In this document: positions 1 to 44,008 of the stretch, piece after piece
Layout: every line of letters starts with the position of its first letter
Numbering within the stretch: position 1 is the first letter of the stretch
Source: a virus
Length of the DNA stretch: 44,008 bases
Strand: one strand, 5' to 3'
Virus record (IMG/VR): IMGVR_UViG_3300031964_000046
Coordinates: 1-44,008 of that record
Position numbers and translations under genes: made by a program
Notes under the pieces: model-generated
Seen by the model: the letters and a program-made list of their open reading frames with translations, nothing else
Database searches by the model: none
Told to the model about the DNA's origin: nothing

Positions 1-128
1 CGATCGGTGCAATAACCCTAACCATCACGCTTTTAAAAATTACGGCGGTCGAGGAATAACATTTTGTAAACGGTGGGACAATTTCCAAGTTTTTCTGGTG
101 GATATGGGTCCGCGTCCTACAAGGACGA
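1..128. repeat. Terminal overlap, left copy (circularity signal)
   Basis: Bases 1-126 are identical to 43881-44006. Base 127 is G here and A at 44007, and base 128 matches again. The repeat lies inside an HNH gene that reads continuously only when the two ends are joined. The simplest reading is that this is the assembly overlap of a circular or circularly permuted genome rather than a biological terminal repeat. The single mismatch is synonymous (ACG/ACA, both Thr). Confidence 0.9.
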
Positions 129-235
129 CTCTTGACCGTATTGAAGTGAATGGAAATTATGAGCCGATCAATTGCCGATGGGCCACTTACAAACAGCAAA
201 GCGGCAATCGCCGAAAGCGAGCAAAGATTCATTAA
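1..235 (+). CDS. HNH homing-type endonuclease, 3' part (5' part at 43573-44008)
   Basis: The reading frame enters at base 2 (base 1 is the last base of a codon) and ends at TAA 233-235. It carries the C-terminal half of an HNH endonuclease: a YGGRGITFC motif, then LDRIEVNGNY and NCRWATYKQQ. Joined to 43573-43880 it gives one 180-residue protein. The motif series (YGGRGI, C..W, LDR, G.Y.P.NCRW.T) also occurs in the HNH protein at 6807-7325, so the two are paralogues. The gene is convergent with the late gene ending at 237, with one base between the two stops. It is probably a selfish free-standing endonuclease; the target site is unknown. Confidence 0.85.
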   Translation, partial: DRCNNPNHHAFKNYGGRGITFCKRWDNFQVFLVDMGPRPTRTTLDRIEVNGNYEPINCRWATYKQQSGNRRKRAKIH

Positions 236-236
236 G

Positions 237-1226
237 TTATCCTGCCAATTCCGAAGCGGGTACCGAGTCGCCGGACCACTGACCTTCGCTGTTGCTGCCG
301 CCATAAAGAGAATTGATGAGGCCGAGATTGCTGATGTTGGAACTCGCCCCGCTGACTGCGCCACCCCACGCGTTTGCAGACCCGACGACGCCAGACGCGT
401 TCGCCGCGCCGGCATTGTTGAGTTGCTGGGCCTGCTGCGCCCCGCTCGTACTCGATAGCTGAGATATGTTGTTCGCCGCGCTCTGCCCGACCGTAGCGAG
501 GTTGTTCGCCGTTGTCTGACCCTCCCCTGATAGAGCGGCTAGGCGGTTGTAGGTATTCGACTGCTGATTCTCATACTGGTTGTAGTTCGAGGCGTAAGTG
601 TTATAGGCGTTGTTGTACGTGTTCTGGTAGTTCGTCGATGCGAGGTTCTGCGCGTAATTGTTGAGCGCCTGGGCTGATCCTCCGGTAAGAAGATTTCCCT
701 GGGCCGCCGCCGACTGCTGAAACGCCTGCTCGCCCATCTGCAACTGCGCTTGCTCGCCTGGAGACTGGAGGGCCTGCTGCGCTGTCGGCGCGGTGAACTG
801 GCCGCCCGGATAAGCTTGGGTCAGCGAACCGAAACTGCCGAGGTTCGGGTTGACCATCGAGCCTAGATTCGTGGTCCCGCTTGTGGCACCGCCAGACGTC
901 GTACCCCCGGTACCGGTAAATGCACCTGCTGAGCCCGAGGACGCGCCGACAGTCGTCGGAGGTGTAATGCCAAGCAAATAGTCTAGGTTGGCCTGCCCTG
1001 CCTCGCCAGACTGAAGGAAAGGGGCTTCGTTGGCCTGAGTCTGACCGTATTCGCCCTCTTGGAAGCCAAGGGCCTGCTGCTCCTGCTGGTATTCAAGTTG
1101 CTGCGCCTGCTGAGCGGAGCTTGCTTGGATACCAGCCGCGGTCGTCGCAGCATTCGAGCCGATAGCCGCCGAGCCAATCGACCCCGCCAGCCCAACTCCT
1201 GCGATAATCCCGCCAGTTACGCTCAT
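237..1226 (-). CDS. Virion DNA-injection (ejection) type protein
   Basis: A 329-residue protein with a Gly/Ala-rich hydrophobic N-terminus (residues about 5-30, GGIIAGVGLAGSIGSAAIGS), then a Gln-rich stretch (QQAQQLEYQQEQQ) and a C-terminal half rich in Asn, Gln, Ser and Ala. This composition is typical of P22 gp7/gp16/gp20-type ejection proteins, which are packaged in the head and released with the DNA. ATG 1226 overlaps the GNAT stop as ATGA, and GGAGG sits 4 bases upstream. On the circular map the next late genes (41960-43558 and 40544-41959) are also injection-like, so the ejection genes form one block broken only by the HNH gene. The function is inferred from composition and position, with no clear catalytic motif. 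Confidence 0.55.
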   Translation of the reverse strand: MSVTGGIIAGVGLAGSIGSAAIGSNAATTAAGIQASSAQQAQQLEYQQEQQALGFQEGEYGQTQANEAPFLQSGEAGQANLDYLLGITPPTTVGASSGSAGAFTGTGGTTSGGATSGTTNLGSMVNPNLGSFGSLTQAYPGGQFTAPTAQQALQSPGEQAQLQMGEQAFQQSAAAQGNLLTGGSAQALNNYAQNLASTNYQNTYNNAYNTYASNYNQYENQQSNTYNRLAALSGEGQTTANNLATVGQSAANNISQLSSTSGAQQAQQLNNAGAANASGVVGSANAWGGAVSGASSNISNLGLINSLYGGSNSEGQWSGDSVPASELAG

Positions 1227-1690
1227 TTTGCCTCCGTCAACAATTTGCTTACAGTGTTGTCCGTGTGCTTCCAGCCCATCAGCTCAAACATTCTCGTGTT
1301 GTCCTCATGGACCTTACTCGAAGCGTGGGCGCGGATCACCCCTCGTTCCTTGAGACCGCGTTCGGACTCCTGAAACATTCGAACCCCGATTCCACCCTTG
1401 CGGTAAGGCTTCATCAGGTAATACATATCCGCCAGCGCGACCGGCCCGGAACTCATGTAGTGCAGATGGTGGGGCATCACGAACCACACCGCATACCCCA
1501 CTAGTTTCCCGTCGTCTCGGACGGTTACAACGTGCATCCGGCCCATCTCATCAAGTAAGCGGTATTGAGCATGGTCCAAATCTCGGGTAAACAGTAGCTT
1601 GTCGAGGGCCAAATCCTGCCAATGGAACGCCGCCACCTCTTCGATTTCGGCATCAATCGCTGCCCAAGTCTCCGTCTTGACCTCGATCAT
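1223..1690 (-). CDS. GNAT-family N-acetyltransferase
   Basis: A 155-residue protein with the GNAT fold pattern. A beta hairpin (VVTVRDDGKLVGYAVWFV, about 54-71) is followed by the MYYLMKPYRKGGIG segment (about 89-102), whose R-K-G-G-I-G matches the acetyl-CoA pyrophosphate-binding R/Q-x-x-G-x-G/A loop. After that comes a helix and a C-terminal part ending MFELMGWKHTDN, as in the usual N..F...GF motif. GNAT enzymes transfer an acyl group from acyl-CoA, or in some families acyl-ACP, to an amine. GNAT genes are common among structural genes of tailed phages, but their substrate there is generally unknown. ATG 1690 overlaps the stop of the acyl-carrier-like gene (ATGA), so the two are probably translationally coupled. 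It could modify a virion protein or a host factor. Confidence 0.8.
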   Translation of the reverse strand: MIEVKTETWAAIDAEIEEVAAFHWQDLALDKLLFTRDLDHAQYRLLDEMGRMHVVTVRDDGKLVGYAVWFVMPHHLHYMSSGPVALADMYYLMKPYRKGGIGVRMFQESERGLKERGVIRAHASSKVHEDNTRMFELMGWKHTDNTVSKLLTEAK

Positions 1691-1860
1691 GCGATTGCCT
1701 GCTGAATGTCGCCCACGGTGACATAATTTCCACTCACATCCGCGCCCAGCGTGAGCAAAAGGTAGAGATATTCAAGAGAATCGACGTTCAGATTCTCCAC
1801 ATGCGTCTCAAGCGTTACCTTCTGCCCGATTTCCTTCTCGATCGTCTTGCAAATGTCCAT
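1687..1860 (-). CDS. Acyl-carrier-protein-like small protein
   Basis: A 57-residue protein read from ATG 1860 to TGA 1687-1689. Its layout is that of an acyl carrier protein: a charged N-terminal helix (ICKTIEKEIGQ, residues 3-13), a loop, the NVDSLEYL motif with the D27-S28-L29 triad at the start of a second helix (S28-G39), and a C-terminal VTVGDIQQAI segment (47-56) resembling helix IV of bacterial ACP. In real ACPs the Ser of DSL carries 4'-phosphopantetheine. The protein is about 20 residues shorter than bacterial ACP, mainly between helices II and IV. The start forms TAATG with the upstream gene and the stop forms ATGA with the GNAT gene. The match is from motif and length only; a chance DSL in a small helical protein is possible. 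Confidence 0.6.
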   Translation of the reverse strand: MDICKTIEKEIGQKVTLETHVENLNVDSLEYLYLLLTLGADVSGNYVTVGDIQQAIA

Positions 1861-2441
1861 TAGGTCGCCGCCGTATAGCTCGTGAGTATGCCGTTCGTGA
1901 AGGTCATGGAGCCGTCTGCGCCGCCCGTCGTTAGCTTGGCAGTCGCAACCACTCCGCTTATCCCGTCGGGCGGAAGTTGCGAATCCGTTATTGCCCCTGT
2001 CAGCGCCGAGAGAGCAGGAACCTGACTCGGAGTAACAGCGCCATTAAGAGCCTCAAGATTCGGCACCTGTGCCGCTGTAAGAGACGGCACCTGCGCTGGA
2101 GTCACGGAGCCCTGCAACTGAGACAGCGGAGGCACCTGGGACGGCGTGGCCTTGCCAGCGATGTCTCCGAAGGATGGCTGTACCAGAAGCGGAGCGCCGT
2201 TGGTCCCAATCGCTGCAATCCACTGATGCGTCACCTGCGAGACCGCCAAGATGCCACCCAAAGCGGAGGCGGTTGGAAATGGAATTGAGTCGGGCGAGAT
2301 ATTTCCTTCAGTCGTAAACGCATTGTTTAGCGCCTGCTGAAGATTTTGCAGCCACTTCGTAAAGGCGAAGGTGGGTTGCCCGGTCTTCGGATCCACCAGT
2401 GGGCCGGATGGAACAAGCTGGGCGAATACGAGCGTGCTCAA
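1860..2441 (-). CDS. Virion protein with P-S-Q-V-P repeats
   Basis: About 193 residues if translation starts at TTG 2441, which overlaps the upstream stop as TTGA; the frame stays open to a GTG at 2489. After a helical N-terminal part (FTKWLQNLQQALNNAF) comes a repeated pattern of TPSQVP/TPAQVP/AAQVP units separated by L-x-x-L-x-G, about residues 98-160, which resembles a fibrous or beta-solenoid repeat. It lies between the gp10-like protein and the ACP/GNAT pair, so it is probably a tail or head-tail component. No family is recognised. Confidence 0.6.
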   Translation of the reverse strand: MSTLVFAQLVPSGPLVDPKTGQPTFAFTKWLQNLQQALNNAFTTEGNISPDSIPFPTASALGGILAVSQVTHQWIAAIGTNGAPLLVQPSFGDIAGKATPSQVPPLSQLQGSVTPAQVPSLTAAQVPNLEALNGAVTPSQVPALSALTGAITDSQLPPDGISGVVATAKLTTGGADGSMTFTNGILTSYTAAT

Positions 2442-4846
2442 ACCTGACCCCCACCACTTGAAATCCTCAAGTATGCGTCCACCACGCACCAGAAAACCGG
2501 GTCTGTCACCACCAACTCATAGACCCTATACCGCGATTGCCCGAGGCGTCTCCAGATAGCTCGTGCGTTGTACTGCCCCGCGAAACCTGTGCCTTGTACG
2601 TGCTGATTGCTCCAAGTCTTGCCCCGATTGTCGCTGAAGCGCAAGACAGCCTGCGGAGGTCGAGGGTTTCCATTTCCGTCAACGAGCGGCGGTTGAGGAC
2701 CATTGCCGGTATCGAAGTCCACGCTGAGTTCCGCATGGTAAATTCTCGCCATCTCTGCGATCACGGTCGGAGCCCGCCGCAAACGCCTGATTGTCTTGCC
2801 GTTGTCGGTGTAATTCGCCGCGCTCATCTGGTACAGGTTTCCGGTCGCCCAGTCGCCCACCAAGTGCTTACCGAAGGCGTAGGTGTGATTCCAGCTTTGG
2901 TGCGGTCCCCACACGCCAAGCTGAGTGTTCCACGTGGAACGTTTATGCCACAAACCTTCTGTCACGTCGTAGCACCATGACCATAAGGATTGCGGAACGT
3001 AAATAACCCAGAAGAGGTGGCCCACGTCCTCATAACTGTATGACACCATTGCGGCGAGGTTCGCGGGTGTGTTCGTTCCCAAGTCCAATTCGACCGCATG
3101 AGTCGAAACCCGCATCGGGACATAGCCGTTCGATCTCCACGCCGAGAGAGCCCCGCGTTCATCCTGGTCGATCCAGAATATCGAATTATCGAGCCGCGCA
3201 GGGGCAAATGTCGCGACGCACCCCTTTTCGATCAGGGTGCCGGGGATGACATCGAAGACTTCATTGCTGCCGGTGTCCTGGTAGGGCTGAGACCGCAGGA
3301 ATCCCATGATCCACGGCTCGCGGTGATTCACGATCAGCGAGGAAATGTTCTCTGCAAATACCTCTACCTCGTTCACCAGCAGTCCGGGCCATGTCGTTCC
3401 GTCGAGCACTTGCGACATCTGGAACTTGTTGCTATTCAAGAACATCACGATAAAGTAACTGTCTGAATAATCAGCCTTGAGTGGCGTTCCGGCCATCTGT
3501 GAGGAGACATTCAGGAGTTGCAGCCCTTTATCCACCCAAAGCAGCGTACCCGTTCCGTCTGGAGTGTTTCCGCCGGCATCGTTGAAGTCAGGTATCGCCG
3601 CGCCAGAGGTTCCGGCGTTGTCGCCGGCTGGACCTTGCTCTGCCCAAACGAGGGTATTTGCGTCCGTCGTATTTCCGGTCTCTTGGAATATCGGCTCTGT
3701 TGTGCCGGAAACACCCGCGTTGGTAGCTAGGCCCTGGTCGGTCCATGTGAGTGTATTGCTGTCGAGAACCGAACCCCCAGCATCATCGAACGTCGGAATA
3801 TCGGCCCCTGACGTTCCCGCCTTGCCGTTCGCGGAGGCTTGGTAGACCCAGAAGAGCGTGGTAAGCGTCGTGCCGTCTGTTGTGGCACCGTAGGAACTCC
3901 ACGCAGGCACCGTGGCCCCCGAGGTTCCTGCATTTCCACCCGACGCGGCTTGGTAGGTCCAAACCAGCGTCCCTGTGCCGTCCGCGGTGACACCCGCGCC
4001 ATTCCACACCGGTGCCGAGGCTCCTGAAGTTCCTGCGGTGGTGACTTGCTGAACATTCCCGTTCGAATCTACGATCTGAAATCCCAGCGCATACGCCGTA
4101 TTGGCCGCCCAAGCGTAGGAGTAAGCTTTCTGGGCGTTTCCGTTGGAGTCGACGATTTCCGCGCCCAAAAGATAGGTCGTATTCGCCACCCACGCAGCCG
4201 CCGAAGCCTTTTGGATATGGTTCGCGGCGTCTACAATTTCCGCGCCGACATTGTAGAGCGTATTCGCGATCCATTTCGCCTGCTCGGCCTGCTGAATGTT
4301 CCCGTTCGGGTCCACGATCTGAGCGCCGATGGCATAGGGCATATTCGCGATCCAAGCAGCTGCGGTGGCCTTCTGGATATGACCTGCCGCGTCCTTGATG
4401 ACCTGCCCTACCGTGTAGACCTTATTCGCAGTCCAGACGCCTGGGGAGAGCGTGTAGCAGTAGCAATAGCCATTGGAGATGACGAGTAGCTGGTTGGTAT
4501 TGTTCACCATCGAAACAGGGTTCCCGTCAGAGGTAACATTGCCGATTTCGTTGCGCGTTCCATCTGCGAAAACTTCGTACAGCGTATCCCCATCTACGGC
4601 GAACAACTGGCTACCGGTCCACCACTGCCCCCGAAGCGGTCCCCCATTTTCGTCAGCCGAAAAGATCGATAAACCTGGGGTGCCATAGTAGCTCTTGACG
4701 CTCGCCGCCGTCTGCCCGCCATAGGGCTTGCTCGGAGCGATAGCAGCCTGCGACTCCAATGTCTCCGCATACCAGTTGATACACTCCTCATCGGCCACGG
4801 CCGTGCTCTTGGAGGTGTACGAAGCTCCGACGAAGCCGATCCTCAT
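2438..4846 (-). CDS. P22 gp10-like packaged-DNA stabilisation / tail protein with repeat insertion
   Basis: An 802-residue protein. The N-terminus (GFVGASYTSKSTAVADEECI, then NWYAE and YGTPGL) and the C-terminal part (HAVELDLGTN, SYEDVGHLFWVIYVPQ, LWHKRSTWNT) resemble P22 gp10, a tail accessory factor that closes the portal channel after packaging. P22 gp10 is 472 residues; this one is far longer because of a repeat block at residues about 138-441. The gene follows the gp4-like gene, as in P22, and starts at ATG 4846, overlapping that stop (ATGA). The insertion may form an external appendage on the tail hub. The family assignment is from remembered sequence pattern and gene order. Confidence 0.7.
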   Translation of the reverse strand: MRIGFVGASYTSKSTAVADEECINWYAETLESQAAIAPSKPYGGQTAASVKSYYGTPGLSIFSADENGGPLRGQWWTGSQLFAVDGDTLYEVFADGTRNEIGNVTSDGNPVSMVNNTNQLLVISNGYCYCYTLSPGVWTANKVYTVGQVIKDAAGHIQKATAAAWIANMPYAIGAQIVDPNGNIQQAEQAKWIANTLYNVGAEIVDAANHIQKASAAAWVANTTYLLGAEIVDSNGNAQKAYSYAWAANTAYALGFQIVDSNGNVQQVTTAGTSGASAPVWNGAGVTADGTGTLVWTYQAASGGNAGTSGATVPAWSSYGATTDGTTLTTLFWVYQASANGKAGTSGADIPTFDDAGGSVLDSNTLTWTDQGLATNAGVSGTTEPIFQETGNTTDANTLVWAEQGPAGDNAGTSGAAIPDFNDAGGNTPDGTGTLLWVDKGLQLLNVSSQMAGTPLKADYSDSYFIVMFLNSNKFQMSQVLDGTTWPGLLVNEVEVFAENISSLIVNHREPWIMGFLRSQPYQDTGSNEVFDVIPGTLIEKGCVATFAPARLDNSIFWIDQDERGALSAWRSNGYVPMRVSTHAVELDLGTNTPANLAAMVSYSYEDVGHLFWVIYVPQSLWSWCYDVTEGLWHKRSTWNTQLGVWGPHQSWNHTYAFGKHLVGDWATGNLYQMSAANYTDNGKTIRRLRRAPTVIAEMARIYHAELSVDFDTGNGPQPPLVDGNGNPRPPQAVLRFSDNRGKTWSNQHVQGTGFAGQYNARAIWRRLGQSRYRVYELVVTDPVFWCVVDAYLRISSGGGQV
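3524..4435 (-). repeat. Two sets of five coding repeats inside the gp10-like gene
   Basis: Residues about 138-270 of the 802-residue protein contain five units of about 27 residues with the pattern W-x-A-N-x-x-Y-x-x-G-x-x-I-x-D, followed by N/H-I/V-Q-K/Q-A. Residues about 271-441 contain five units of about 34 residues of the form A-G-T/V-S-G-x-x-x-P, then D-x-x-T-L-x-W. The units are diverged at DNA level but clear in protein. Similar W/Y-G-rich modules in surface proteins often bind carbohydrate; that role here is inference. Confidence 0.8.
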
Positions 4847-6806: not shown

Positions 6807-7325
6807 TTATGCTCCTGTGCGCCTCCTGCGAGGACGCTGATTGCTGTTTTGTACCGCGTAGGTAACCCATCGGCAGTTTGAAGGCGAGTAACCGGAATTG
6901 TTATCTCTCCGGTCCACAGTCAACTTACCTTTTCCCAAGATGTGCTCGTATCCATTTTCCTTCGCCCACAAGATGAAGGCTTCTGGATCGTGCCGCCACG
7001 CCTTACAGACTTCAATGCCTCGCCCACCGTAATCAGAATACTTCCTGTTCTTAGGGTTATAGCACCGCTGAATCATGGCTTCCCAGATTGCGTATATCGG
7101 TTCATGGGAAAGACCATGCGTTCTTGCTGTGAAGCGCTCAGCCTTGAGACATCCACAGGATCGGGTGTTGCCATTTCTAAGACTGGCCCCTGACACTGTT
7201 ATGAGTTTCCCGCACTCACAGCGACAATCCCATCGAACACTGCCGCTGCCGTCGCGTACGCTCGCCTTGCTGATTACCTCAAGACGAAAGAATTTCTTGC
7301 CAGTTATGTCGTCAAATCTTCCCAT
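6807..7325 (-). CDS. HNH homing-type endonuclease inserted after the coat gene
   Basis: About 172 residues from ATG 7325 (MGRFDDITGKKFFRL). The N-terminal part has a Zn-binding module (WDCRCECGK, then SCGCLK). The catalytic part has IWEAMIQRCYNP, YGGRGIEVCKAW, LTVDRRDNNSGYSP and NCRWVTYAVQN. It shares this motif series with the endonuclease that crosses the window ends. An in-frame extension to 7439 exists but runs into the coat gene and lacks an SD. The real start codon lies in one arm of a perfect 14-bp inverted repeat with an AAGGA in the loop, so translation is probably controlled by RNA structure. It sits between two late genes as a selfish insertion. Confidence 0.85.
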   Translation of the reverse strand: MGRFDDITGKKFFRLEVISKASVRDGSGSVRWDCRCECGKLITVSGASLRNGNTRSCGCLKAERFTARTHGLSHEPIYAIWEAMIQRCYNPKNRKYSDYGGRGIEVCKAWRHDPEAFILWAKENGYEHILGKGKLTVDRRDNNSGYSPSNCRWVTYAVQNSNQRPRRRRTGA

Positions 7326-7362
7326 CCGTATATTATAACTTGTCCTTGTAATATACGGATGG
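7322..7362 (-). promoter_or_regulatory. Start-codon-sequestering hairpin of the HNH gene
   Basis: Bases 7322-7335 and 7349-7362 form a perfect 14-bp inverted repeat around a 13-base loop. On the minus-strand RNA the HNH start codon (7325-7323) is inside the 3' arm and the only SD-like AAGGA (7347-7343) is in the loop. A TATAAT (7337-7332) overlaps the same stretch and could be a -10 box, but I see no matching -35. The hairpin is expected to repress translation from readthrough late mRNA, as known for several T4 homing endonuclease genes; here that is inference. Confidence 0.7.
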
Positions 7363-7384
7363 CATAAGTGCTTATTTCTTATGC
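7362..7384 (-). terminator. Small hairpin at the coat gene stop
   Basis: GCATAAG (7362-7368) pairs with CTTATGC (7378-7384) around a 9-base loop, overlapping the coat stop codon. There is no strong U-tract, so it may attenuate transcription or protect the coat mRNA 3' end rather than terminate fully. It abuts the HNH hairpin. Confidence 0.4.
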
Positions 7385-8611
7385 ACCTGCAACAGCTACT
7401 GCACCCGCGTCGTTGTACAAGTTGCCGTAGCCCATGCACATGTCAAATCTATTGGTCATCTTCGACTCACGCTGATCCCATGCACGAACGAAGCGAACGG
7501 CGAGTCCGGTGTCCGGATCTTCCGTCTGCTCTGCACGCTCGACCGCCTTCGGAACTTCCAGCTTGCCGCCGCTCATCGCGAAGGCGAACTTGGATAGGCC
7601 GAGGGAAACCGTGCCGCTCACACCGCTTGGTGCGTTCGTTCCGGGCCACAAGGTCAGTGCAGCTCCGTTGGCAGGCAGAGAATCGGTGTTCTGATACTGC
7701 GAGCCAGGGCCATAGATGGCAGGAGACACGTTCAGCGAGTCGGTCCCACCAGTCAGGGTCAGAGGCGTCAGAACGGTGAAGTTCTGTGCGCCCATCGTAC
7801 CTGCACGGCGAGTGGTCGGGTTGACGCCATTGACGTTGGCGATGGAGAACTTGTCACCAACGTTGAACGTCTGCCCTGCCGTTCCGGTGACGCTCAGCAC
7901 ATTGCCGGACTGGTTCGCTCCGGTAATGGTCACACCGCCCGTTGCGGCAGTCCCAACCGTGTGCTCGTAGAGCGAGTTCGAGCGGTACCACTCCCAACCA
8001 GCCGCCGTACCGAGAACGCCGGTGCGGAACATGCGGGAGATTTCCGGGGCCGGGTTGAACTGCGTCACGTTCGCCTGCACATACGACTGCATCAGCGACG
8101 GGCTCAGAATGAGGTGGCGAATCCCCTTGGGGCAAGCCTTCTCATAGAGCCGACGCTCCGCAGCAGCAGCGAAGTTGATCGTGGTCGCGTCCGTGCCGAG
8201 GGTGCCGACGACGTTCGATGTGTTCTGGTAGGCGAACAGTGCAGCGCGAGAATCACACTCCTGCGCCAACTGCCGAGCAGCCGGATACAGGTAGTTCTCC
8301 TCAAGCTCTTCCTGCGAACGCTCCATCTTGACGAGACGCTCGTAGGAGTCCCACTCAAAGTGAATCCCGAACACCTGATCCAAATTGATGGTGGTTGCCA
8401 GACGAGCGATTCCCTGGGGCTGATATCCCAAGCCGTTCGTCACAACCCAGCGCTGCGGAAGTTTGACCTGTACGGACGAGCCTACAGGGAAGTTCTTACC
8501 GAACTCCGACTCCCACTCCGTATTGAAGACACTGGCAACTTCGAGAGCATTCTGCAAAAACCACAGAATCTTCATCGAAACCCAGTTTGTGTCGAGAAAT
8601 TGATTTGCCAT
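7379..8611 (-). CDS. Major capsid (coat) protein, P22 gp5-like
   Basis: A 410-residue protein of the HK97 fold in its P22-like form. The N-terminal arm begins MANQFLDTNWVSMKILWFLQ, followed by NTEWESEFGKNFPVGSSVQV. It has a long E-loop/spine helix region (SYERLVKMERSQEELEE) and an inserted Gly/Thr/Asn-rich domain (about 220-290, with FNVGDKFSIANVNGVNP) like the P22 I-domain. The C-terminal part ends in GLAVRFVRAWDQRESKMTNR. It assembles the procapsid on the scaffold encoded just upstream. Start ATG 8611 has AAAGG about 6 bases upstream. Confidence 0.85.
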   Translation of the reverse strand: MANQFLDTNWVSMKILWFLQNALEVASVFNTEWESEFGKNFPVGSSVQVKLPQRWVVTNGLGYQPQGIARLATTINLDQVFGIHFEWDSYERLVKMERSQEELEENYLYPAARQLAQECDSRAALFAYQNTSNVVGTLGTDATTINFAAAAERRLYEKACPKGIRHLILSPSLMQSYVQANVTQFNPAPEISRMFRTGVLGTAAGWEWYRSNSLYEHTVGTAATGGVTITGANQSGNVLSVTGTAGQTFNVGDKFSIANVNGVNPTTRRAGTMGAQNFTVLTPLTLTGGTDSLNVSPAIYGPGSQYQNTDSLPANGAALTLWPGTNAPSGVSGTVSLGLSKFAFAMSGGKLEVPKAVERAEQTEDPDTGLAVRFVRAWDQRESKMTNRFDMCMGYGNLYNDAGAVAVAGA

Positions 8612-12569: not shown

Positions 12570-12913
12570 ATCGTGTTCGCTCCGTCCTCGTACACAATGT
12601 CCAACACATCGCCGGCGGTCCCGTTGACATACCAGCTCCCGAGGTCACGACCGACACCGGTTGCGGGTCCGACATAGAACGCACCGCCTGGAGTCGCAAC
12701 GCTGAGTCCGCGGGTGGTGCTGATATTCGCGTCTCCGATCCGCATGACGTGGGCTGCATTGTTCTGAAACAGCATCCAAATTGCGTTCAGGTGAGCGCCT
12801 GGGCTCAGAACGGCGGTATTCCCAGCCCCGATGGTAACCTGCATGGTTTTGACAGCTGCGTGGGCCTGCAATGGCAGGAATAGCGCAGCCGCGACAAGTA
12901 TTTTCTTCATCAT
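12566..12913 (-). CDS. Secreted or virion beta-rich protein with signal peptide
   Basis: 115 residues from ATG 12913, which overlaps the terL stop (ATGA) and has GGAG 9 bases upstream. The N-terminus is a textbook Sec signal peptide (MMKKILVAAALFLPLQAHA, cleavage after AHA). The mature part is beta-rich, with an IWMLFQNNAAHVMRIGD motif and a terminal WYVNGTAGDVLDIVYE motif. A signal peptide directly after terL is odd for a phage protein. It may be exported to the envelope or, like the fibre genes at 34-40 kb, be a virion protein carrying a leader. No named family is recognised. Confidence 0.65.
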   Translation of the reverse strand: MMKKILVAAALFLPLQAHAAVKTMQVTIGAGNTAVLSPGAHLNAIWMLFQNNAAHVMRIGDANISTTRGLSVATPGGAFYVGPATGVGRDLGSWYVNGTAGDVLDIVYEDGANTI

Positions 12914-15363
12914 GCCCATCCACTCCTTCTCGCTGGCGGTGCAACTGGTTTAGGTTTCGGCGGCGCAATCTTCACTGCAAACGTCATCGCCCACGCATCT
13001 CCGAAGTCTGGCGAATCCACTCCCCGCGATCGCATCTCGTCTTTGCTCTCAAGCACTATGCAATTCCTCGTAGGGTGGTATCCGTAATCCGGTGCCGTCA
13101 AATCTGTGTCTATCTCTGGATCATCGGGTATCTGTCCACCTTCGAGCCAGTCCTTTCCTTCGCCCCAAATCTCTGTGCGCCGATTGAAATACTTTTGCGG
13201 GTCTTGCGCCGCTGCACCACCGTGGAACTCGAATAAGATCATCTTGCGTCCGTCTGGCCAAATGATCTTGTCATAGCGGCGAGCGACGAGGTAATCGACT
13301 ACCGCCCCGCCAATGCCGTCTCCGTCAATCACTACGGCGTCCGGTCGCTCCCGATCAATTGCTTCCTGAACCATGCCACCAAGCTTCTGAGTGTCCATGC
13401 CGTAGAAGACGCCTTTGGGCTTTCCTCCACATATTTCTGCTTTTCGTCCCTGGCGCTTGAATATGACGCTTCGGTTATCTCCGAATCGAGCAACGTCCAC
13501 GGCGAGGATGACAGGGCTTGATTGGTAGCCATCGACGATTCGCTTTCGCGCTGCTGATACGAGATCGCCGGATATGAATTGCGTAGATCCACCGCGAGGA
13601 AATTCTCCGCGTATTCTGACTCTTGCTCTGTCGGAGTCTTCGCCCCATCCCCTGATTTGGGCGTCGAGGAGCGATTTGTTGGTGCCTTCGACGGTGCGGG
13701 AGTCGATTTGACGCTTGACCCAGCGGTTCGCGCCGGTGATGGCTTTGTAGAACTCGCCGGTGTTGCGCGTTGGGTTTCCGAACGCGATCCAGATGATTTC
13801 CGTGTCTTCATCGCTTAGAACTCCCTCAGCCACTTCCCAGATGATGTCGTCAATTGAGCTAGCCTCGTCGAAGATGATGACGATTCGCTTGCCCTGATTG
13901 TGAAGTCCTGCGAAACCTTCCGTCTTCTGCACCGACCACGTAATAAAGTCGGCTCGCCACATCGCCTGATGCTCAGGGTCTTTGACCCGTATCGACGTGG
14001 CATTGATGTCCCACCAGTGTGCATTGATGCCGTGCCGAAACCACTTCTGCACTTCCGGGGCTGTCTTCGTGGAGAGCTGTACACCAGTTCCAGCCGTGAC
14101 TACTACCTTGCAGTCCTCGCAGGTGCTCATGGCCCAATCAATCACCATGCCAATCTCGGCACTGTTGTGCGTCACAATGAAATCGGAGGTTTGATACAGC
14201 CCTCCGTCCACCTCAAAGCAAATGCCTGGACCCGACTCTATTTCCTCAATTGAATCAATCCACTTAGCCGTGTATCTCGATTCTGCGGCGATCAGACGGC
14301 TTTGCTTTCGAGCAATCTTGAAAAGCTGTGTTACGCCGTCCCAAGTTATATGCGTCTGCCAACTTCCGGCAAATTGATTGGCCTTGAAACTCTCCGCCCT
14401 TGCTCTCAAACCTAACGATCTGGCCAGTTCGATAACGTCTTTGGTGAGCTGACGGGATGCGCTGGCAAACGCTGCTCCTCCGCATTGCTCTACCCAGCCA
14501 TCCGTATCGAGCAATCCTTGAAGAACCTCTAGGCGTTCAGATGACTCGATGTAGCGACGGTCTACCTTTGCGTTATACGTGGTGCAACCAAATAGGCCAG
14601 CCTTGCGAAGATGTTTCTTTAGTCCATATAGGGTACGACAGACGCCTTGCCCACGGTGGGGATACGCCACGTTATCCCAAACTTCTGGGTCGATGTTCGT
14701 TACGCCTCCGCCATCCTTTGTCCCATCTCCGAGCCACACGCCATACGTGTATGGGTCAACGGGTAGCATAGCTTTGGCGTATTGAACTGCGCCAGAGGCA
14801 GGTATCTCCCATTGCCTAGACAAAGAAACTCCGTTGGCCCTCAGAACTCCAGCGTTCACGATATCGAGCGTTGAAACTACCTTCCACCCAGTTCCGTTCC
14901 GCCTAGCTTGTCTGTCCCGCGTCTTCCACAAATGACCGGATGAAACATTGACGGCCGTTCCATCAGAAAAGCGAACTCGATAGAAAGGGCATGACTCGTA
15001 AAACCTCATCGCTCGAATCAAAGCCGGCGATCCATCTTCGCCAAACAGATAATCTCCCACACGCATGGTAGAGATTTGGCGTAAACCGTCAGGCGTAGGC
15101 AGATAATCTTGAGGGCTCTGAGCCTTCCCAATGCCGTGGCCCGATGCGACCGCGATCTGCAATGGCTGATGCCGCGTCTCAGGGCTTGCGAAGTGATCCC
15201 GGATCAGCGTGTTGATGTCGTTCTGCCACGTTCGAGGTCCGCTCGCCGGCAGCTTCTCCGACTCCCAAGGGAAGTTGTACCGCATGAAGCCGACCGGATC
15301 GAGCGAGTAAGCCCCGATGTCCTGGGCAAGGGCTAGTTCTTCCTCTGCCAAGCCGCCCTTCAT
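12910..15363 (-). CDS. terL: Terminase large subunit interrupted by an intein
   Basis: The frame encodes 817 residues: an 80-residue N-extein, a 320-residue intein (81-400) and a 417-residue C-extein, giving a 497-residue mature terminase. Walker A is split: GHGIGK (75-80) is followed after splicing by S401. Walker B is IVIIFDEA (493-500), followed by the coupling motif FGNPTR (529-534). The RuvC-like nuclease shows AVDVARFGD (D623), VVIDGDG (D680) and SPDFGDAWA (D786/D789). The protein pumps DNA into the procapsid and cuts concatemers. ATG 15363 overlaps the RHH ORF stop (ATGA). The host P-loop is useless until the intein is removed, so splicing is essential for packaging. Confidence 0.93.
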   Translation of the reverse strand: MKGGLAEEELALAQDIGAYSLDPVGFMRYNFPWESEKLPASGPRTWQNDINTLIRDHFASPETRHQPLQIAVASGHGIGKAQSPQDYLPTPDGLRQISTMRVGDYLFGEDGSPALIRAMRFYESCPFYRVRFSDGTAVNVSSGHLWKTRDRQARRNGTGWKVVSTLDIVNAGVLRANGVSLSRQWEIPASGAVQYAKAMLPVDPYTYGVWLGDGTKDGGGVTNIDPEVWDNVAYPHRGQGVCRTLYGLKKHLRKAGLFGCTTYNAKVDRRYIESSERLEVLQGLLDTDGWVEQCGGAAFASASRQLTKDVIELARSLGLRARAESFKANQFAGSWQTHITWDGVTQLFKIARKQSRLIAAESRYTAKWIDSIEEIESGPGICFEVDGGLYQTSDFIVTHNSAEIGMVIDWAMSTCEDCKVVVTAGTGVQLSTKTAPEVQKWFRHGINAHWWDINATSIRVKDPEHQAMWRADFITWSVQKTEGFAGLHNQGKRIVIIFDEASSIDDIIWEVAEGVLSDEDTEIIWIAFGNPTRNTGEFYKAITGANRWVKRQIDSRTVEGTNKSLLDAQIRGWGEDSDRARVRIRGEFPRGGSTQFISGDLVSAARKRIVDGYQSSPVILAVDVARFGDNRSVIFKRQGRKAEICGGKPKGVFYGMDTQKLGGMVQEAIDRERPDAVVIDGDGIGGAVVDYLVARRYDKIIWPDGRKMILFEFHGGAAAQDPQKYFNRRTEIWGEGKDWLEGGQIPDDPEIDTDLTAPDYGYHPTRNCIVLESKDEMRSRGVDSPDFGDAWAMTFAVKIAPPKPKPVAPPARRSGWA
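14164..15123 (-). mobile_element. Class 3 (WCT) intein with LAGLIDADG endonuclease
   Basis: 320 residues inserted in the terL P-loop between Lys80 and Ser401. The first residue is Ala, not Cys/Ser (AQSPQDYLPTPDG). The class 3 triplet is complete: Trp146 in block B (SSGHLW, two residues after the block B His144), Cys382 in block F (GICFEV), and Thr398 just before the terminal His399-Asn400 (FIVTHN). Class 3 inteins splice through the block F Cys instead of residue 1. The centre holds two LAGLIDADG-type motifs, GVWLGDGTKDG (block C) and LQGLLDTDGWV (block E), so it may be an active homing element targeting the conserved Walker A codons of intein-free relatives. Confidence 0.9.
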
Positions 15364-34367: not shown

Positions 34368-36194
34368 CTAATTAGAGATGCCCTGTAGCCATTGACGGTA
34401 TCCCTTGTACATCTTTTTTGCATAGAAGAGTACGCCAGGAGGAGTGGGGTGTGTCCCGTCTGATGAAACAATGTACGTTCCTCCATTCCCGGGATTGATC
34501 CATGGACCGTCAGGGTCATTTGTAATGGGAATAAATATCGAGTTGGGGTCTCCCCACGTCGAGTAGGCGGTTTGGAGTGCCGCCTCCAAAGTGGTCGAGA
34601 AGTCGAAGGTATAGCTCGTGGTGGTTTGAATCCCGAAAATTAGAATTGGTGTGTTCGGAGCATTCGCGCGGATTTTCTGCCAGGTAGTAAGCGCTGCCGC
34701 CCCAATTGTCGTATCGTATCCGGCGTCGTTGACACTCCCGAGAATCACGATAAGATCGCACGACTGCCGCAGGACATCATTTGCGCGGTATATGCTCGTC
34801 CACGCGTAGTTCGTCCCTCCACTGTTGATATACCCCGTCCCTCCGACGGAAAGAAGATAGGGATGGAGACCGGCCAAAGTGGCGAACTGCATGGCAGTAT
34901 TCTCAGCGCCAAAGCTGCCCGCTGCTCCTCCATTGAAGTAGCTGTCGCCAAACATGCAGGCATTGACACGGTTCGCCTCAGATGCTTTCCAAACGGAACC
35001 GGGAGCGTACACGTAGAGATGTTGTAAAAGCATATTGCCCTGAAGTTCGATTCTAACCTTGTGAATGCTCGCCGTGCTGAAGGTGATCGGGATACAATTC
35101 CCCGCACCCACCGTGCTGACAGTTGATGTTTGGTAAGAATCATCCACGGCGACACGGTAGAGTGCTGGCGAGACACCGTTGGTGTAGAGGCATTGCATTA
35201 TGCTGGGGAGCGTTGAAGTGATGGTCTCGGAGCTTATTGTGGCCTGGGCGAGACTTAGGGTGTAGGTACCGGCCCCTCCCGTTCCGGTTCCGAGCGCGGT
35301 GATATAAACAGGGCCAACCGTCCCAACACCGCTAAGGTACTGCCCGACAGCGAGAGTCCCTGATGCACATGCCGCGACCGTGTAGGTGGTTGCGGAGATA
35401 GAGCCAGTACAGACGGCGGGAACGATAAAATTGGCAGCGTCTGTGTAGAATTCAAAATATTTCGGGGTGGGTGCATTTGTGGGAGCCGTGGGAGGGTTCA
35501 CATAGTTTCCCGCCGTAGACCCAGAAACTCCAGCATTTCCGCCGTAGCTCTGAATCACGCCTCCGGCCACATCCACCAATTGCGTGAAAGCCTGCGTAGG
35601 GAGGGCGGAGGTGGTCCCCATCGCAGACTTCGAGATCGTGATTGTTGCGGAGGTGACTGCGGTTACTACAGACCCCATCGGAATATAACTCGGGTATGCG
35701 GCATATGCTGCATTTTCCACGAATGGCATCCCTACAACAACCGGATAGGTGCAACTTTTACCGGTGAGTAGATTGCTTCCCGACGTGGTGTTCACCACGC
35801 AATCCGATGCGAATCCGGTCGTCGCGGGCAAGATGTTGGTGTAGCCTGTTGTCGGCAATGCGACGGACGGACTATCGACGACAGCCATACTGGTGACTGG
35901 GTTGTCAACTAGATTAGAGGCATCCGCTTTGGCGGCGGAAGCGCGCATTTTGCGGATGGCGGCGGACGGCTGAGAAGTGAGTGCTGCGATTGCGGCACCA
36001 GTTGGGTCATATACGCCTGACCCGATGACCGACTGAACTTGCGAACTTGTCGCACTAACTGCCGTTCCAGAAGAGTTGGTGGCTACGACCGGCACAGATG
36101 GAGGGAGAACGGCACTGCCGCCAGTGTTCGGCGGAACGTATTGCCCGAGAGCGGTGCCGCCTGTCAACATCAAAAATAGAAGAATGCGCTTCAT
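34368..36194 (-). CDS. Tailspike/fibre with SGNH esterase domain and signal peptide
   Basis: 608 residues, ATG 36194 with AAGGAG 7 bases upstream. N-terminal signal peptide [18 protein letters not shown] helix-rich beta/Thr-rich shaft follows. The C-terminal 200 residues are an SGNH/GDSL hydrolase: block [10 protein letters not shown] (Ser418), block II VGGTGY, block III ILGSVND (Gly486, Asn489), block [10 protein letters not shown] (Asp579, His582). Such domains on tailspikes remove O-acetyl or other acyl groups from surface polysaccharide. All catalytic residues are present. Confidence 0.8.
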
Positions 36195-43572: not shown

Positions 43573-44008
43573 ATGGCTAGCACACTGCGTGATTTATCTG
43601 GCAAGCGTTTTGGGAATCTCATAGTTTTAAACCGCTCCTCGGCTGTTGGAGAAGGTCGCCCACGATGGCGCTGTCTCTGTGATTGTGGCACTGAAAAGCT
43701 CGTTATGGGAGATGATCTGAGAAAGCCCAAACCCAGAGGTATAGTTAGCTGCGGATGTATTCAGCGCTCCCATATGGCAGCTCAAGCAGAGAGATGCAAA
43801 GGTAATCTGGGAAATCATCGCATTCACGGCGCTTCGGGAAACAAGCGAACGCCCGAGTATGGAAGCTGGGCTCATGCTCGCGATCGGTGCAATAACCCTA
43901 ACCATCACGCTTTTAAAAATTACGGCGGTCGAGGAATAACATTTTGTAAACGGTGGGACAATTTCCAAGTTTTTCTGGTGGATATGGGTCCGCGTCCTAC
44001 AAGGACAA
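43573..44008 (+). CDS. HNH homing-type endonuclease, 5' part (continues at 1-235)
   Basis: ATG 43573 opens a frame that runs off the window and continues at base 2. The N-terminal part has FGNLIVLNRSSAVG, then a Zn-binding WRCLCDCGTEK and SCGCIQRS. The catalytic region follows (YGSWAHARDRCNNPNHHAFK, then YGGRGITFCKRW). The full protein is 180 residues. It is inserted between two injection-protein genes in the opposite orientation to them, so it is not simply coupled to late translation. Confidence 0.88.
   Translation, partial: MASTLRDLSGKRFGNLIVLNRSSAVGEGRPRWRCLCDCGTEKLVMGDDLRKPKPRGIVSCGCIQRSHMAAQAERCKGNLGNHRIHGASGNKRTPEYGSWAHARDRCNNPNHHAFKNYGGRGITFCKRWDNFQVFLVDMGPRPTRT
43881..44008. repeat. 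Terminal overlap, right copy
   Basis: 43881-44006 equals 1-126 exactly, with one synonymous mismatch at 44007 (A for G). See the left copy. Confidence 0.9.

Follow-up and report, generated by a model that had tools for sequence, protein, structure and literature searches.

Why would a short-tailed phage carry a gene resembling that of an acyl carrier protein (ACP) next to a GNAT acyltransferase gene, within its virion gene string? We analysed this locus in the window, the whole 44,008-nucleotide stretch of IMG/VR record IMGVR_UViG_3300031964_000046. The results suggest that the phage chemically modifies some protein, perhaps part of its own injection machinery, in a way not previously described for phages.

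Genome setting

The window carries a terminal repeat of ~128 bases (1–128 and 43881–44008), and in sister contigs the sequence continues through the joint, so it looks like a circularised complete genome. Judged from the sequence of the genes around the ACP–GNAT pair, the phage is a P22-like podophage. The coat gene matches PF11651 (E 1.5e-21) and the portal gene PF16510 (E 2.7e-107) in Pfam, and the pair lies between the head-closure and DNA-ejection genes, inside the virion gene string (Table 1). The initial annotation had described a 57-residue ORF with a DSL motif (Ser28) and a VTVGDIQQAI segment, overlapping a GNAT gene by ATGA and lying next to injection proteins; all of these features were recovered, the enzyme through its Acetyltransf_1 match and the neighbour through a 'DNA ejection' family. 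The 209-aa ORF upstream of the ACP gene found no family in Pfam or PHROG scans.

Table 1. Features of the ACP–GNAT locus, in window coordinates
Feature	Coordinates	Strand	Evidence
P22 gp7-like DNA-ejection protein, 329 aa, N-terminus MSVTGG, candidate acceptor	237..1226	-	phrog_598 E 4e-10
GNAT acyltransferase, 155 aa	1223..1690	-	PF00583 (Acetyltransf_1) E 3.7e-9, over cut-off; phrog_1249 E 1.2e-10
ACP stop codon overlapping GNAT start codon (ATGA)	1687..1690	-	sequence (reverse complement)
ACP, shortened form of 57 aa with pI 4.20, predicted 4'-phosphopantetheine site Ser28 (DSL)	1687..1860	-	homologue profiles, AF2 model, conservation
Virion-region ORF upstream of ACP, 209 aa, same gene string	1860..2489	-	an ORF resembling it precedes the ACP gene in L028, L029 and L083
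Head-closure Hc3 / P22 gp10-like protein	2438..4846	-	phrog_578 E 3.5e-81

Several other features of the genome were recorded. The head-closure protein has 802 aa, against 511–543 aa in several relatives and 1125 aa in L012; its extra length is an insert of degenerate repeats resembling AWxANTxYxxGxxIVDxxGxxQ, which were not detected as tandem DNA repeats. The terminase large subunit (12910–15363, minus strand, 817 aa) contains a LAGLIDADG/Hom_end match at residues 274–329 with terminase halves on either side, by its sequence a probable intein. Two homing-endonuclease-like ORFs, one at 6807–7439 (minus strand), directly behind the coat gene, and the other across the contig joint (43573–44007 with 1–235, plus strand), antisense among the ejection genes, carry NCRWVT/NCRWAT motifs near their ends and matched no curated family above cut-off. 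A tail protein (34368–36194, minus strand) ends in a GDSL lipase/acylhydrolase domain (PF13472, E 1.5e-11), which possibly removes acyl groups from host polysaccharide. A defence-system reading was discarded after a PADLOC scan gave none.

A shortened acyl carrier protein

The ACP ORF encodes MDICKTIEKEIGQKVTLETHVENLNVDSLEYLYLLLTLGADVSGNYVTVGDIQQAIA, with D27-S28-L29 present and the VTVGDIQQAI segment starting at V47. Taken alone, this sequence has no useful match in Pfam, PHROGs or NCBIfam, and tblastn retrieved no relatives of it from annotated phages. The expected profile match to ACPs emerged instead from its homologues: 16 of 18 match PF00550 (PP-binding) with E-values of 0.01 or lower, the best being 7e-12. 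Several score above the gathering threshold, and two of the first three scanned had already reached or passed it. Longer homologues also match phrog_5934 'acyl carrier protein' (E down to 5e-12), and many match NCBIfam ACP models below the curated cut-offs. Searched against the PDB, a profile of the 18 homologues matched 112 distinct sequences (best E 1.3e-14); the 60 of these listed are ACPs or ACP-type subunits, and Ser28 aligns with the DSL serine of 2EHS. Across the 18-sequence alignment, in which identity to the window protein ranges from 19% to 62%, Asp27 and Ser28 are the sole positions without any variation, and L29 comes close. The homologues are likewise acidic (pI 4.05–4.52, n = 16 measured).

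The structural model agrees with this assignment in part. AlphaFold2 (AF2), given an alignment of the window and viral-contig rows only, returned a confident model (pLDDT 91.1, pTM 0.71) with helices at residues 3–11, 21–24, 28–38 and 49–56 and with canonical helix III absent. Nearly every structure that Foldseek places near it is an acyl or peptidyl carrier protein (TM, normalised by query length, reaching 0.82), with no E-value below 0.2, which is expected for a protein of 57 residues. The helix III region is partly or wholly missing in the window and its nearest relatives (57–59 aa; 62 aa in L076) and is kept in L083, L082, L061 and L036 (69–76 aa). The ACP layout initially proposed thus holds for family and conserved Ser28, and the modelled fold resembles carrier proteins, but in a shortened form in place of the full four-helix arrangement. 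Homologue profiles, conservation and model identify ORF 1687–1860 as a true, if shortened, ACP family member.

The GNAT enzyme

The GNAT is modelled with high confidence (pLDDT 93.6) as a standard single domain. Its nearest folds are RimI and AAC(6') (Foldseek E 7e-9), the nearest solved structures use acetyl-CoA, and N-alpha/RimI-type acetyltransferases are among its profile and fold neighbours; weak AAC(6') similarity was seen as well. The pyrophosphate P-loop R97-K-G-G-I-G102 fits R/Q-x-x-G-x-G/A, so the window enzyme may use CoA. The loop is degenerate in several GNAT relatives, both linked and not linked to an ACP, and is therefore not diagnostic of the donor. Other positions separate the two groups: Gly82 (an insertion), Met89, Ser124 and Asp144 occur in 12/12 ACP-linked sequences and in 0–1 of 14 non-linked ones. 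In the window the last of these forms Thr143-Asp144, with Glu at the Asp144 position in non-linked enzymes, and a later-found ACP-linked member (L083) has Ile at the Met89 position.

Conserved pairing of ACP and GNAT genes

GNAT relatives were gathered from viral contigs and annotated phages; two scans of bacterial genomes yielded none. In 18 distinct phage loci, the window among them, the GNAT gene is immediately preceded by an ACP gene. In the 15 pairs measured, the reading frames overlap by 4–20 nt, mostly as ATGA, an arrangement that likely couples translation of the two proteins. When an ACP profile was run on the loci, every GNAT of the ACP-linked type had an ACP beside it (18/18), bearing out the co-occurrence anticipated from the single locus, and none was found near the other 17–18 GNAT relatives. 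A PF00550 search of whole records gave the same division, with hits in 12/14 ACP-type phage records versus 0/11 records of related GNATs without ACP; the two misses, the window and L027, both have the 57-residue form.

The pairing follows the phylogeny of the enzyme. In a first GNAT tree, ACP-linked members fell on one side of a branch with support 93/90 (12 versus 18, zero exceptions). Members found later (L067, L070, L075, L076, L082 and L083) had an ACP in 6/6 cases, a modest check on data outside the first tree. When a very distant outgroup is included, the ACP label needs two changes on the tree, and the ACP-linked GNATs could, on these sequences, be a paraphyletic ancestral group from which the ACP was lost once. 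ACP and GNAT distances are correlated (r 0.54, 0/5000 permutations), to which shared phage ancestry also contributes.

Many related GNATs have an Asp/Asn beta-hydroxylase gene (PF05118) upstream in place of the ACP (six tested, E 6e-12 to 2e-17). Such genes lie directly upstream of homologous GNATs in L032 (3432–4004), L041, L049, L052, L057 and L059, the isolates Pseudomonas phage PfAn1 and Limnohabitans phage DC33 included. The ACP and hydroxylase arrangements never occurred together among the loci examined. The hydroxylase seems to serve this GNAT family as an alternative partner, and its replacement of the ACP in related phages may point to different chemistries at one slot. The record of phage DC33 (PQ492659.1, L057; 39 kb) files it under Inoviridae, an apparent taxonomy error, as its GNAT and hydroxylase resemble those of tailed phages. 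Judged by the head-closure protein, the nearest isolates are Rhodoferax P26218 and DSL-LC05; neither has an ACP or a GNAT annotated in that slot.

Ejection proteins as candidate acceptors

The gene after the GNAT encodes a phrog_598 gp7-like ejection protein in the relatives tested, and this adjacency in the relatives checked favours, without proving, a virion target. In the window this protein has zero Lys, zero Cys and a single Arg. Acylation of Lys or Cys in it is thereby ruled out and, if it is the acceptor, the site would be the N-terminus or a hydroxyl. The gp7-like proteins start with MS or MG, and in ACP-type phages a frequent N-terminus of the second ejection protein is M[G/A]xIPLPAL. 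From composition and weak similarity, the N-terminus of an ejection protein would be the most likely acylation site.

Proposed mechanism and alternative explanations

We favour a dedicated phage acyl-carrier/acyltransferase module in which an acyl-ACP charged by the host would serve the GNAT in modifying a protein, most plausibly an ejection protein. The transfer is an inference, as are the acyl group and its acceptor, and we give the scheme nearly, though not quite, even weight. Host AcpS would attach 4'-phosphopantetheine to Ser28: an ACPS-type phosphopantetheinyl transferase (PF01648) was found in none of 14 phage records, several of them fragments, so host AcpS presumably activates the carrier. 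Host fatty-acid enzymes would then load an acyl group, the phage GNAT would bind this acyl-ACP in place of acyl-CoA or in preference to it, and would acylate an amine, most likely the N-terminus of a co-produced ejection protein. The modification may help the protein to insert into membranes during DNA delivery. A dedicated system of the IacP/SipB-like or HlyC-like kind is supported by the conserved linkage of carrier, enzyme and candidate target, with ACP and GNAT together in all 18 loci and phrog_598 downstream where tested. A more specific version, ACP-dependent N-terminal lipidation, would have the GNAT move a fatty acyl group from the phage ACP to an exposed Gly, Ala or Ser of ejection proteins, an analogue of eukaryotic N-myristoylation serving membrane insertion; in that exact form we regard it as unlikely.

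Several observations speak against the favoured scheme: the window ACP has no helix III, which usually forms part of the acyl pocket; the GNAT keeps the canonical CoA-pyrophosphate loop, and its nearest solved structures use acetyl-CoA; and GNAT relatives occupying this genomic slot function with no ACP. The retained R-x-x-G-x-G loop and the acetyl-CoA enzymes among the fold neighbours would also suit a GNAT that loads or unloads the phosphopantetheine thiol of the phage ACP with acetyl- or acyl-CoA, the charged or blocked carrier then feeding or disturbing host fatty-acid or lipid synthesis. Other GNAT-type domains are known in general to act on ACP-bound groups. Further precedents are YiiD, reported in a paper on malonyl-ACP decarboxylase activity to allow FabH-independent initiation of fatty-acid synthesis (PMC8666670), and acpP, a presumed auxiliary gene of roseobacter prophages (PMC8224337). 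Action on the ACP nevertheless seems improbable to us, because the pair occupies a late position among virion genes, not metabolic genes, in the relatives examined, no further fatty-acid gene was present among the window ORFs searched, and the related GNATs of that slot lack an ACP that could be their substrate.

The acyl-ACP might otherwise be spent on a host protein or small molecule, in a Rac-like takeover or on an N-acyl amino acid or aminoglycoside-like target, with the virion neighbourhood reflecting late timing only. The weak AAC(6') similarity is compatible with such a target, and a dedicated ACP with an N-acyl synthase (FeeL/FeeM) is known from bacterial clones. We rate a host target as rather doubtful: the slot beside gp7-like ejection genes is conserved across divergent phages, and the fold search gave RimI/AAC(6')-like enzymes and, among the best 50 matches, no LuxI or FeeM. 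Rac, a GNAT of phiKMV-like phages, does act on the alpha subunit of host RNA polymerase, but its gene has a different position, next to that of the phage RNA polymerase (PMC7552054). The shortened fold of the window lineage, together with the use of ACPs as structural subunits elsewhere (complex I, for example, among the PDB matches), could also mean that the small protein is an ACP-fold subunit that regulates or chaperones the GNAT or the ejection protein and takes no part in acyl chemistry. A non-catalytic adaptor would need no DSL serine, yet among the homologues nothing but Ser28 and Asp27 is invariant at such divergence, which makes a purely structural role quite improbable. That the ORF is spurious or a chance look-alike, as the poor database matches of the window protein alone might suggest, has a negligible probability and is already refuted by conservation, PF00550 and PDB matches: 18 homologues occupy the same place and most match PF00550, dN is 0.34–0.41 with dS saturated or about 2.6, and the AF2 model is confident.

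Relation to known systems

Bacterial ACPs (PF00550; AcpP, PDB 2EHS) share with the window protein the DSL serine, the small acidic helical build, the TVGDI segment and, in the model, a similar fold; the window form differs in its 57-residue length, its missing helix III and its place with a GNAT in a virion gene string rather than among fatty-acid genes. Homologues of the window ACP match the same family (phrog_5934) as the ACPs of phages pf16, GAP32, Caulobacter CcrMagneto and Prochlorococcus P-HM2, but these are carried by phages of 158–359 kb, and no GNAT is annotated beside the ACP in pf16 or CcrMagneto. A functional parallel is IacP, a dedicated ACP whose gene adjoins the injection apparatus and which acylates SipB of the Salmonella SPI-1 translocon, promoting membrane insertion (PMC5279801). 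No acyltransferase is known in that system and the acceptor is Cys, whereas the window has a paired GNAT and a neighbouring ejection protein without Cys. Rac is likewise a phage GNAT; it differs in its host RNA polymerase target, its genomic position and the lack of any mention of an ACP. The hydroxylase-linked podophages PfAn1 and DC33 have homologous GNATs, in PfAn1 in the same slot before internal virion proteins, preceded by PF05118 and not by an ACP.

The ACP–GNAT pair was absent from the annotated phage records searched. The open-access literature searched treats phage and prophage ACPs as auxiliary genes and held no report combining phage, ACP, GNAT and virion, an absence that is not proof. 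Phage ACPs are thus already known, from large phages and roseobacter prophages, and the pair in a virion operon appears new among the annotated phages and open-access literature searched.

Implications

One GNAT type inherited together with an ACP makes a directly testable two-gene system, and the exchange of ACP for Asp/Asn hydroxylase among related GNATs offers a natural comparison. If the proposed module is real, covalent acylation of virion proteins through a dedicated carrier protein would add a new layer to phage biology and might help to explain how short-tailed phages insert their ejection proteins into the host envelope.
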